DNA of 64,000 bases from Acidovorax sp. T1 (GTDB taxonomy: Bacteria > Pseudomonadota > Gammaproteobacteria > Burkholderiales > Burkholderiaceae_C): the NCBI RefSeq assembly GCF_002176815.1, contig NZ_CP021648.1:1496001-1560000 (forward strand), read 5' to 3'. Positions 4,011 through 63,118 of this stretch are shown here, piece after piece. The notes under the pieces are model-generated. The model did not search any database. It was given only the letters and a program-made list of their open reading frames with translations, and had not been told where the DNA came from. Each line of letters begins with the position of its first letter. Positions within the stretch are counted from its first letter, which is position 1. Both the position numbers and the translations under genes were made by a program.

Positions 4011-4056
4011 TATTTATAGCTGCTTGCGCTTGATCTGTAAGCGCTGCAGGCCAATA
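4011..4056 (+). repeat. Dispersed AGCGCTT-type repeat, copy 1
   Basis: Copy of a roughly 45-bp dispersed repeat found throughout this window. It reads ATAGCTGCTTGCGCTT, a short loop, then AAGCGCTGCAGGCCAA. The core is an imperfect palindrome. It lies between murB and the shared terminator. Confidence 0.75.
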
Positions 4057-4114: not shown

Positions 4115-5458
<1,344 letters not shown>

Positions 5459-5460
5459 TC

Positions 5461-5512
5461 AAAAATGATAGCTGCTTGCGCTTGCTGCATAAGCGCTAGA
5501 GGCCAAAAATGC
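5461..5512 (+). repeat. Dispersed AGCGCTT-type repeat, copy 2
   Basis: Matches the family pattern: GATAGCTGCTTGCGCTT, a loop, AAGCGCTAGAGGCCAAAAATG. It lies in the 70-bp gap between ppnP and argG, both read on the minus strand. Confidence 0.8.
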
Positions 5513-5520
5513 TCTGAATT

Positions 5521-13091: not shown

Positions 13092-13141
13092 TCAAGGCTC
13101 AGATGATGACAACGGTTGCAGTGTGATCGAGGTTGTCAAGT

Positions 13142-13217
<76 letters not shown>

Positions 13218-13253
13218 AAGTTTGTTGATAGATACGGTTAGTTCCAAGGTTTT

Positions 13254-13329
13254 GACCCCATCGTCTAGAGGCCTAGGACATCACCCTTTCACGGTGAGTA
13301 CCGGGGTTCGAATCCCCGTGGGGTCGCCA
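13254..13329 (+). tRNA. tRNA-Glu (TTC), copy 1
   Basis: A 76-nt gene with encoded CCA. The acceptor stem GACCCCA pairs with TGGGGTC, and the anticodon stem-loop TCACC-CTTTCAC-GGTGA gives TTC. Confidence 0.97.
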
Positions 13330-13379
13330 AGTTGTAGCGCTTGGCTTGTGTGAAGAATGCAAGCAAAAGCTGCCTGCCA

Positions 13380-13456
13380 GGAGTGGTAGTTCAGTTGGTT
13401 AGAATACCGGCCTGTCACGCCGGGGGTCGCGGGTTCGAGTCCCGTCCACTCCGCCA
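13380..13456 (+). tRNA. tRNA-Asp (GTC), copy 1
   Basis: A 77-nt gene with encoded CCA. The acceptor stem GGAGTGG pairs with CCACTCC, and the anticodon arm CGGCCTGTCACGCCG gives GTC. Confidence 0.97.
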
Positions 13457-13462
13457 GTCAAA

Positions 13463-13496
13463 AGCCCTTGCAGGTCTTTGATGTGCAAGGGTTTTT
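13463..13496 (+). terminator. Hairpin between the two tRNA units
   Basis: CCCTTGCA (13465-13472) pairs with TGCAAGGG (13484-13491), followed by TTTTT. It looks like an intrinsic terminator after the first Ala-Glu-Asp unit, only 26 bp before the second unit begins. Confidence 0.65.
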
Positions 13497-13521
13497 CTTT
13501 GGTGAGAACCAGAGAAATTTT

Positions 13522-13597
<76 letters not shown>

Positions 13598-13633
13598 AAG
13601 TTTGTTGATAGATACGGTTAGTTCCAAGGTTTT

Positions 13634-13709
13634 GACCCCATCGTCTAGAGGCCTAGGACATCACCCTTTCACGGTGAGTACCGGGGTTCGAATCCCCGTG
13701 GGGTCGCCA
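13634..13709 (+). tRNA. tRNA-Glu (TTC), copy 2
   Basis: Identical to the first tRNA-Glu; the Ala-Glu spacer is also identical in both units. Confidence 0.97.
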
Positions 13710-13761
13710 AGTTGTAGCGCTTGGCTTGTGTTGAAAAGATGCAAGCAAAAGCTGCCTGCCA

Positions 13762-13838
13762 GGAGTGGTAGTTCAGTTGGTTAGAATACCGGCCTGTCAC
13801 GCCGGGGGTCGCGGGTTCGAGTCCCGTCCACTCCGCCA
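13762..13838 (+). tRNA. tRNA-Asp (GTC), copy 2
   Basis: Identical to the first tRNA-Asp. The Glu-Asp spacer is 52 nt here against 50 nt in unit 1, with a few differences around its middle. Confidence 0.97.
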
Positions 13839-13842
13839 GATC

Positions 13843-13879
13843 AAAACCGCTGCAGTCGCAAGGCTGCAGCGGTTTTTTT
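13843..13879 (+). terminator. Terminator of the tRNA cluster
   Basis: CCGCTGCAG (13847-13855) pairs with CTGCAGCGG (13864-13872), flanked by an A-run and a T-run of seven. Confidence 0.85.
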
Positions 13880-13930: not shown

Positions 13931-13984
13931 GAGCCAAATACGCTTGCAGCGCTTTATGGGTAAGCGCTGGGAGCTATAAATACA
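13931..13984 (-). repeat. Dispersed AGCGCTT-type repeat, copy 3
   Basis: Reverse-oriented copy: GCCAAATACGCTTGCAGCGCTT, loop, AAGCGCTGGGAGCTAT in its halves. It lies between the tRNA terminator and the end of the SDR gene. Confidence 0.65.
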
Positions 13985-18624: not shown

Positions 18625-18646
18625 CCGTGGCAGCCTAATCACTCTG

Positions 18647-18701
18647 TTTTTGATAGCTGCTAGCGCTTATCCCATAAGCGCTAGAGCCCATTTTTGCTCA
18701 A
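18647..18701 (+). repeat. Dispersed AGCGCTT-type repeat, copy 4
   Basis: The cleanest copy: TTTTTGATAGCTGCT, then the palindromic core AGCGCTTATCCCATAAGCGCT, read as AGCGCTT-N7-AAGCGCT, then AGAGCCCATTTTTGCTC. It lies between hsdR and hsdM. Confidence 0.85.
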
Positions 18702-21030: not shown

Positions 21031-21080
21031 AAAATCGGGCTCTAGCCCATACAGATCAAGCGCATGCTGCTATCAAATTT
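21031..21080 (-). repeat. Dispersed AGCGCTT-type repeat, copy 5, overlapping the hsdS start
   Basis: Reverse-oriented copy with a partly decayed left arm: GGGCTCTAGCCCAT, loop, CAAGCGCATGCTGCTATCAAATTT in two parts. The hsdS ATG (21064) and its first codons (MLLSNL) lie in the right arm. Confidence 0.65.
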
Positions 21081-27450: not shown

Positions 27451-27510
27451 GATTTATAGCAAAATTGGCCTGTAGCGCTTGTGTATTAAGCGCTAGATGC
27501 TATCTTTTTT
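27451..27510 (-). repeat. Dispersed AGCGCTT-type repeat, copy 6
   Basis: Reverse-oriented: AAATTGGCCTGTAGCGCTT, loop, TTAAGCGCTAGATGCTATC in its arms. It lies between the convergent antiporter and carboxypeptidase genes. Confidence 0.75.
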
Positions 27511-41350: not shown

Positions 41351-41848
41351 TCAACGGCTGCGCGGCCGCACGGTGATGGTTCCGGTCATGCCGGCCGCGT
41401 AGTGGCCGGGGATCAGGCAGGCAAAGTCAAAGGTGCCGGGCCGGTTGAAGTGCCAGACGATGTCGCCGCGCTGGCCCGCGCGCACATGGGCCATGTAGGG
41501 CGCGTCGTGTTCCATGTCGGGAAACTTCTGCATCATCTGCGCATGCTGGTCGAGTTCGGCTTGGGTGCCCAGCACGATCTCGTGCAGCACCTTGCCCTTG
41601 TTCTGGGCGCGCAGGCGCACGGTGTCGCCTTCCTGCACTTCGATATGGCTCGGGGAAAAGCGCATGTCGTCGCCCATGCGGATGGTGATGGTGCGGCCCA
41701 CGGCAGCGGCATCGCCGGCAATGCCCCAGTCCTTTTGCTCTTTGACCACGGCGGCGCTGGCGGCATGGTGCGGCATGGTTTCATGGCCAAAAGAGGCGTT
41801 AGCGCTTATGAATAAAGCGCAAGCAGCTATGAATTTGATAGTTTTCAT
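41351..41848 (-). CDS. Cupredoxin (plastocyanin/azurin-like), exported
   Basis: This 165-residue periplasmic blue-copper protein has type 1 copper ligands H89, C144, H149 and M154 in LHEIVLG and FACLIPGHYAAGM. It would shuttle electrons or copper for the oxidase encoded just upstream. The signal peptide MKTIKFIAACALFISANA is encoded by a copy of the dispersed repeat, which supplies its hydrophobic core. It is 25 bp downstream of the multicopper oxidase. Confidence 0.9.
   Translation of the reverse strand: MKTIKFIAACALFISANASFGHETMPHHAASAAVVKEQKDWGIAGDAAAVGRTITIRMGDDMRFSPSHIEVQEGDTVRLRAQNKGKVLHEIVLGTQAELDQHAQMMQKFPDMEHDAPYMAHVRAGQRGDIVWHFNRPGTFDFACLIPGHYAAGMTGTITVRPRSR
41797..41842 (-). repeat. 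Dispersed AGCGCTT-type repeat, copy 7, inside a coding region
   Basis: Reading the gene strand: ATAGCTGCTTGCGCTT, loop, ATAAGCGCTAACGCC. It lies wholly within codons 5-18 of the cupredoxin gene and encodes the signal-peptide core. Confidence 0.8.
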
Positions 41849-41873
41849 GGTGAAGTCCTCGTTGGGTGCGGGT

Positions 41874-46421: not shown

Positions 46422-46470
46422 ATGAAACTGATAGCTGCTAGCGATTATGTAGTAAGCGCTTGGGCGTGTT
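46422..46470 (+). repeat. Dispersed AGCGCTT-type repeat, copy 8
   Basis: AAACTGATAGCTGCTAGCGATT, loop, TAAGCGCTTGGGCGTG in its arms; the first arm has one changed base. Confidence 0.7.
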
Positions 46471-46540: not shown

Positions 46541-46592
46541 AGTGATAGCTGCTTGCGCTTTGCAGTCAAGCGCTGGATCGGTATTTTGTTTC
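46541..46592 (+). repeat. Dispersed AGCGCTT-type repeat, copy 9
   Basis: GTGATAGCTGCTTGCGCTTT, loop, CAAGCGCTGGATCGG. It lies 119 bp after copy 8, in the same orientation. Confidence 0.75.
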
Positions 46593-53795: not shown

Positions 53796-53846
53796 GTCAA
53801 ATAGGCTGCTAGCGCTTGATGGATAAGCGCTGGTAGCTCATTGTTT
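53796..53846. repeat. Dispersed AGCGCTT-type repeat, copy 10
   Basis: ATAGGCTGCTAGCGCTTG, loop, GATAAGCGCTGGTAGCTC. Both arms resemble family ends, so orientation is ambiguous. It lies between the decarboxylase and the DNA ligase gene. Confidence 0.8.
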
Positions 53847-54781: not shown

Positions 54782-54845
54782 GCTATTGATTGTGTAGCTT
54801 CTAACGCTTTATCCGTAAGCGCTAGCAGCCGATTTGATCAAAAAT
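54782..54845. repeat. Dispersed AGCGCTT-type repeat, copy 11
   Basis: GTGTAGCTTCTAACGCTTTAT, loop, TAAGCGCTAGCAGCCGAT in its arms, followed by TTTGATCAAAAAT. The first arm is slightly diverged. Confidence 0.75.
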
Positions 54846-63063: not shown

Positions 63064-63118
63064 GCAAAAAATGGCTCTGGCGCTTACTGGTAAAGAGCTG
63101 GTAGCTATTAAAAAATGA
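63064..63118 (-). repeat. Dispersed AGCGCTT-type repeat, copy 13
   Basis: GGCTCTGGCGCTTACTGG and AAAGAGCTGGTAGCTATT form the two arms. It lies between yejF and the convergent regulator gene. Confidence 0.65.

Follow-up and report, generated by a model that had tools for sequence, protein, structure and literature searches.

How could the presumed export signal of a copper protein come to be written in the letters of a repeat that otherwise lies scattered between genes? The question is raised by a cupredoxin gene in a 64,000-nt stretch of the Acidovorax sp. T1 genome (the window). The initial annotation of this stretch proposed that a full copy of a repeat of about 45 bp lies in codons 5-18 of the gene and supplies the core of its signal peptide, an intergenic element having become protein-coding. 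The features of the gene start are as follows.

41351-41848, reverse strand: cupredoxin gene (plastocyanin/azurin family), 165 aa, with presumed signal peptide MKTIKFIAACALFISANASFG; Pfam Copper-bind, PF00127, 2.1e-10
41786-41848, reverse strand: presumed signal-peptide coding region, 21 codons, from the sequence and its orthologues, with cleavage before HETM read by eye
41856-41860, reverse strand: GAGGA, likely ribosome-binding site, by inspection of the sequence
41783-41842, reverse strand: gene-embedded repeat copy in extended alignment (repeat coordinates -12 to +47), matching 34/41 consensus positions
41800-41830, reverse strand: 31-nt repeat core ATAGCTGCTTGCGCTTTATTCATAAGCGCTA, 0 mismatches to the core pattern
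41821-41815 and 41807-41801, reverse strand: palindrome arms TGCGCTT and AAGCGCT, read from the sequence

The start position of the gene is common to 28 aligned orthologues (L009-L036, the window gene included), with ATG in 27 and TTG in L030, and the gene adjoins those for a multicopper oxidase, a DUF411 protein, and a CusF-type protein. Its product is 90% identical to the ortholog in Acidovorax defluvii DSM 12644 and 82% identical to that in A. soli. Residues 1-40, used as a protein-search query, retrieved 12 proteins, ten with cupredoxin Pfam domains and two with none, and a plasmid search returned no plasmid carrying the cupredoxin gene at high identity. The window's own genome (G000, 4.4 Mb) encodes a second cupredoxin on another contig (G000:C2:34204-34632), 47% identical, for which the match starts only at query residue 14. 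The annotated placement of the repeat proved essentially right, with FIAACALFISANA corresponding to codons 6-18. A repeat copy is indeed present in the gene, but the length of 45 bp was too short: similarity extends from about codon 3 (ACT) to codon 20 (TTT), and the element as a whole measures about 60-70 nt.

This element is a dispersed, AT-rich, partly palindromic repeat found in Acidovorax and relatives, with a GC content of 40.8% in the copies examined. Its consensus in the window genome, about T.GCT....A..T.ATAGCTGCT.GCGCTT.....ATAAGCGCTAGAGGCCAATTT, was derived from 25 copies of that genome, the cupredoxin copy left out, in seven 14-kb stretches chosen around known copies. A 37-nt form (up to three mismatches) matches the 4.4 Mb window genome 185 times, and the reversed control pattern 0 times. 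The 31-nt core matches 447 times there and 0 to 678 times across 47 genomes of the genus, with 0-2 matches in six (repeat-poor genomes), counts in which a near-palindromic copy may register on both strands and incomplete genomes score low; its reversed control gave 0 matches in 46 of the 47 genomes and one in G027. Within the window 12 of 127,880 positions on both strands score at least 28/41, and the core (up to four mismatches) occurs 12 times, once inside a gene, the cupredoxin gene, and eleven times at places not contained in an ORF:

4016-4046, forward strand: intergenic core copy, 0 mismatches
5468-5498, forward strand: intergenic core copy, 0 mismatches
13947-13977, reverse strand: intergenic core copy, 2 mismatches
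18653-18683, forward strand: intergenic core copy with a strong hairpin, 0 mismatches
21043-21073, reverse strand: weak core copy overlapping a predicted ORF start by about 10 nt, 4 mismatches
27473-27503, reverse strand: intergenic core copy, 2 mismatches
46431-46461, forward strand: intergenic core copy, first of a direct pair 114 nt apart, 2 mismatches
46545-46575, forward strand: intergenic core copy, second of the direct pair, 1 mismatch
53802-53832, forward strand: intergenic core copy, 3 mismatches
54794-54824, forward strand: intergenic core copy, 2 mismatches
63078-63108, reverse strand: intergenic core copy, 3 mismatches

Read on its forward strand, the repeat offers only one frame free of built-in stops. 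The encoded peptide, TIKxIAA(S/C/R)ALx(I/V)SAxAxF, is laid out like a Sec signal peptide, with lysine in the n-region, a core that is hydrophobic, and small residues. The intergenic copies do not look coding; a stop is present in the coding frame of 9 of 25. These copies keep 92% of stem pairs as against 39% in shuffles, a difference inflated by the two-armed search pattern. One of them (18640-18700) folds into a strong hairpin (-19.3 kcal/mol, z -3.6) and another (5455-5515) folds no better than shuffles (z 0.1). An RNA hairpin was rejected as the cause of conservation in the cupredoxin gene, the start of which folds no better than shuffles (z -0.9). Membership in an Rfam family was likewise rejected: at the gathering score the only matches in the window are tRNAs (8). 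The window also holds, at 13141-13855, an exact 211-nt and a 95%-identical 117-nt duplication involving two sets of three tRNA genes. Outside whole copies (162 kb), the sub-words TAAGCGCT and ATAAGCGC each occur 0 times against 0.2 expected, and AGCGCTT occurs 41 times against 24 expected, a mild excess. An ordinary uptake word is thus unlikely, because the sub-words are not clearly enriched outside whole copies.

Resemblance between a gene start and the repeat could in principle follow from the encoded peptide. The match was accordingly compared with synonymous draws, in which the peptide is held fixed and codons are taken from the usage of 34 window ORFs, this window usage being applied to other genomes too. 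The cupredoxin gene matches the consensus at 34/41 positions where synonymous draws expect 23.8 +- 1.7, and no draw reached 34 either in 20,000 (maximum 30) or in 50,000 (maximum 31). The copy uses codons that are locally rare, namely ATA (0.93 per 1000), TTA (0.37), and ACT (2.0) among 16,169 codons. Ten signal-peptide cases, five from the window genome (cupredoxin, DUF1775, M16, SIMPL, and LivK-like) and five from others (G007 M16, DUF1775, and Chalcone_3; G034 SCO1; G061 SIMPL), each gave 0 of 20,000 draws, and the observed matches of GspD, SCO1, and ABC_trans_aux in the window genome were reached by 0 of 50,000. Over 20 tests, with cupredoxin entered twice, no draw reached the observed match except 1 in 50,000 for MiaA of the window genome and 1 in 50,000 for a short-chain dehydrogenase gene. 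Two other secreted proteins of the window, serving as controls, gave best placements of 16-17/41, reached by 18 and 43 of 2,000 draws. Neither chance nor the choice of amino acids explains the resemblance.

Besides cupredoxin, seven further unrelated families have this repeat, read in the same frame, as their presumed signal-peptide core. These are M16 peptidase (PF05193), DUF1775/YcnI (PF07987), Chalcone_3 (PF16036), SCO1/SenC (PF02630), SIMPL (PF04402), a periplasmic binding protein of the LivK type (PF13458), and the type II secretin GspD (PF00263; L296:10177, G000:C1:3265176), in which the repeat-coded presumed signal peptide is eroded. At least one member of each family was tested against Pfam, and other members were assigned by reading beside these. 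We take SCO1 and DUF1775/YcnI to be copper-related by family, which together with cupredoxin would make three copper-related recipients. In an ABC_trans_aux lipoprotein (PF03886) the repeat encodes the n-region, ahead of a separate hydrophobic stretch and lipobox. The start codon lies outside the repeat in cupredoxin and inside it in several other genes, ACTATTAAA being changed to ACTATGAAA. By reading of the N-termini, these proteins have the features of Sec signal peptides, that is, a positive n-region, a hydrophobic core, and small residues before the cleavage site or a lipobox. A second repeat copy lies just past the 3' end of the SIMPL gene (L243, about 395-455; G000:C1:2434900).

Recipients in the genus were sought in two ways, first through start codons lying a short distance ahead of the repeat and later through a profile made of 11 rows of such peptides. 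Among 40 stretches picked by eye from the matches listed, 13 encode recognisable exported proteins and 27 do not; many candidates consisting of ATG plus repeat were chance. Of 40 profile matches fetched, 36 were read, and these comprised 24 recognisable secreted proteins and 12 others. A further scan of 49 stretches passed 15 rows, 9 of them not signal-peptide genes; as read, these 9 include two upstream regions, one of serC and one of an acyl-CoA dehydrogenase gene, and one MiaA. The loop of 18 typed signal peptides has a mean Kyte-Doolittle value of 3.1 as against 0.5 in stop-free intergenic copies. Both the predominance of signal peptides and the hydrophobicity of their loops are partly built in, because the searches favored signal-peptide-like cases: one pattern asked for Leu at a loop codon, and peptides of this kind were the basis of profile A1.

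Most recipient loci are occupied in several congeners; GspD with the repeat was seen in one genome, and SIMPL and the LivK-like protein in two each. The cupredoxin start scores at least 26/41 in 27 of 30 repeat-bearing congeners, and the ABC_trans_aux start does so in 23 of 33. Orthologues encoding the same signal peptide with unrelated codons, which would speak against the annotated origin, were looked for. The four repeat-poor congeners compared at this locus (G002, G005, G031, and G032, with 0-2 matches) all encode other peptides with unrelated codons, scoring 16-18/41, and orthologues from many other genera likewise have different peptides and unrelated codons. Partial exceptions are the eroded cupredoxin starts of G001, G018, and G030 (23-24/41), which keep a similar peptide start. 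The ABC_trans_aux start is unrelated (14-19/41) in all six repeat-poor congeners (G002, G005, G031, G032, G063, and G068). Sequence is indeed unrelated to the repeat at the three loci compared in congeners with 0-2 matches, with the exception of MiaA in G002. Occupation of the same loci is not confined to the genus for most families. A peptide profile (E <= 1e-5) matched in 43 of 299 family genomes and 25 of 141 genera, the genus itself included; in other genera, 14 M16-type loci in nine genera were read, and SCO1, DUF1775, Chalcone_3, and LivK-like cases occur as well. In a tree of 109 cupredoxin orthologues, midpoint-rooted and based on few columns, the repeat label is clustered, requiring 10 changes against a shuffled mean of 36, and the starred branches force at least three. 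The main repeat clade includes seven repeat-less orthologues, of which four belong to genomes with 0-2 matches, and a few repeat-bearing orthologues fall outside it, including those of Polaromonas and Rhodoferax metagenome-assembled genomes.

The claim that an intergenic element became a signal-peptide core is borne out at the DNA level and extends to further gene families. We consider recurrent exaptation of the dispersed palindrome as a Sec signal peptide to be the probable reading, and for the eight families in which the repeat appears to form the hydrophobic core it is the best-supported one. Under this reading a palindromic repeat of non-autonomous appearance would disperse through the genome, carrying on one strand a stop-free frame that amounts to a ready-made signal peptide. 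Where the 5' end of a gene for an exported protein acquired a copy in this frame, that copy would take over as the signal-peptide core, the direction running from repeat to gene by some form of insertion. The start codon would be supplied either from outside the repeat, as in cupredoxin, or from inside it by one change of ACTATTAAA or ACTATCAAA to ACTATGAAA. Copies so embedded would then be inherited with the gene across species, with selection presumably maintaining their hydrophobicity.

The repeat is also found where export is not at issue. In MiaA, the cytosolic tRNA-modifying tRNA dimethylallyltransferase (PF01715), it lies in the same frame within an internal variable loop (L398, G000:C1:1197953-1198942; also L412, L405, and L342). 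Scores of the loop reach 35/41 (G035), with a borderline 28/41 in the window genome and 31/41 in another genus (G189), and at least 26/41 is found in 24 of 33 repeat-bearing congeners; four of the 41 MiaA stretches, unread in the first comparison, later scored 27-29. Repeat-poor G005, G032, G063, and G068 have a GC-rich loop that is shorter by one residue and scores 15-16/41. G031 gave no MiaA and does not enter this comparison, and G002 is an exception, with no repeat match elsewhere and a loop scoring 23/41. The length of this loop varies anyway, because solved MiaA chains are four residues shorter (2zm5_A) or seven longer (3crm_A) than the loop described here. Since MiaA is by family a non-exported protein, the repeat is not specific to secretion signals and can, it appears, sit in tolerant protein segments generally. 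Together with ABC_trans_aux, where the repeat seems to provide an n-region and not the hydrophobic core, MiaA argues against a role in secretion only. A short-chain dehydrogenase gene (L395, G000:C1:3456000-3457600) contains an in-frame repeat-like stretch of 31/41, borderline by the synonymous draws given above.

Such observations lend weight to the strongest alternative, which we regard as unlikely. It holds that a force acting on DNA or RNA (ectopic gene conversion, an uptake-sequence-like drive, or a protein-binding hairpin) keeps the motif genome-wide, so that signal peptides, lipoprotein n-regions, and the MiaA loop are tolerated landing places for TIKxIAASALxxSA and no exaptation took place. 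The in-frame MiaA copy, present in repeat-bearing congeners and in one other genus, speaks for this alternative, as does the rise of the in-gene match with the number of copies in the genome, seen at three unrelated loci (rho 0.79, n=34; 0.76, n=38; 0.73, n=39; phylogeny not controlled). Phylogenetically independent pairs point almost wholly in the same direction, with only 3-5 pairs and a sign test that is not significant. The replacement is also nearly length-neutral: signal peptides are about equally long whether or not the repeat encodes them, and MiaA loops of the two kinds are one residue apart. Against such a force, the repeat's words show no clear enrichment apart from whole copies, in contrast to short uptake words, and from high- to lower-scoring cupredoxin copies the stem pairs fall from 0.86 to 0.73 while 10-mer hydropathy falls from 2.16 to 2.07, so that the stem is less kept than hydropathy, a trend partly circular since the copies were grouped by score.

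Some of this evidence bears on exaptation as well. Near-neutral length counts against plain insertion, because about 20 inserted codons would lengthen the gene, and the copy-number correlation counts against exaptation alone, because selection on the signal peptide does not by itself predict it. No case of a recent insertion paired with an empty site turned up. The near-constant length and the correlation would both be accounted for if all copies were being homogenised. It is also possible, and we offer it tentatively, that a dispersed non-coding palindrome has been a portable signal-peptide donor in the course of Comamonadaceae history, repeatedly furnishing the export signals of at least eight unrelated protein families (among them copper proteins, a protease, a lipoprotein copper chaperone, and the type II secretin), that embedded and intergenic copies make up one homogenising population, and that the same nucleotides are subject both to DNA-level concerted evolution and to selection for secretion.

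A reversal of direction appears improbable. In that case the repeat would derive from a signal-peptide-coding segment, for example of an M16 peptidase gene, and would have been amplified later as a non-coding element; the M16-type signal peptide is common to at least nine other genera, which makes the embedded form an old one. In the dispersed copies, however, it is the palindrome that is best conserved, a feature that signal peptides do not require, and the stops in frame in 9 of the 25 copies, together with variable positions that show, by eye, no third-codon-position pattern, speak further against an origin in a gene. Rare, AT-rich codons are common near bacterial gene starts, and the peptide is like ordinary signal peptides; convergence of this kind is nonetheless scarcely credible and is refuted for the tested genes by the ten cases with 0 of 20,000 synonymous draws, by the two control proteins at only 16-17/41, by the recurrence of the same codons across unrelated families, and by the absence of the repeat at the cupredoxin and ABC_trans_aux starts of repeat-poor congeners.

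Recurrent exaptation may be set beside several known systems. The closest published case found is that of Yersinia, in which the 168-bp element RU-2 codes for residues 1-30 of YPO1552, part of a predicted signal peptide of residues 1-41, relatives of YPO1552 having unrelated signal peptides (Delihas, 2007; PMC2759123). Like the repeat described here, RU-2/YPAL and ERIC/RU-1 are dispersed, have an open frame, and are fused in frame to ORFs (PMC2759123). Yersinia differs in lineage, in the length of the element, and in offering one predicted example among predicted exported proteins of little-known function; here the element has 60-70 nt and recurs in eight protein families that are otherwise known, the majority seen in several species. 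Rickettsia palindromic elements (RPE) of 105-146 bp lie in frame in protein genes (Ogata, 2000, as described in PMC2229807), and resemble the MiaA case in being palindromic elements inside conserved proteins. The present repeat is shorter, nearly length-neutral, and mostly at signal peptides, which the searches favored. The longer protein expected of an RPE-type insertion is not seen in MiaA, whose loop is within one residue of that of four repeat-poor congeners.

BRE elements, of about 90 bp, averaging 69% GC in Bordetella, and often tandem, are similarly dispersed in Bordetella and several Comamonadaceae, with some copies wholly inside coding sequences (PMC3110155). Identity with BRE was rejected on the published description, given the length and the GC content of 40.8% here. 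The repeat resembles REP/REPIN sequences associated with RAYT transposases in being a short palindrome with hundreds of copies, those in the window lying mostly between genes. Here there is no convincing linkage to a Y1 transposase: of the 47 genomes searched in the genus, 44 carry PF01797 (RAYT subfamilies pooled), the six repeat-poor ones all among them, and a repeat copy lies near one of ten Y1_Tnp stretches examined, a few hundred nt away. An article on REP/REPIN and RAYT (PMC3733652), searched for six Burkholderiales names, gave none of them. One genome, G070, has 37 Y1_Tnp matches, most with the same score, the other 46 having at most three each. DNA uptake sequences of Pasteurellaceae and Neisseriaceae (PMC2346458) likewise occur in hundreds of copies, with one orientation commoner in reading frames; the unit here is much longer and palindromic, and its sub-words are not clearly enriched alone. 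The open-access literature, covered by titles and abstract starts and with most subscription papers outside it, gave no description of the repeat or of its signal peptides. To judge by that literature, what is new is that the element recurs, that it is conserved, and that its recipients are a set of known proteins.

For annotation, the lesson is that a repeat match at a gene start can be genuine coding sequence. The origin of new export signals is an open question, and here one element is found as the presumed signal peptide of many proteins, which suggests that repeat DNA may repeatedly have been turned into protein-export signals. Repeat-less orthologues allow comparison, so that the birth, fixation, and erosion of a signal peptide may be traced codon by codon. 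The Acidovorax repeat may thus constitute a bacterial system in which the same element is both a DNA-level element and a protein segment, and in which its upkeep by selfish copying or by secretion becomes testable.
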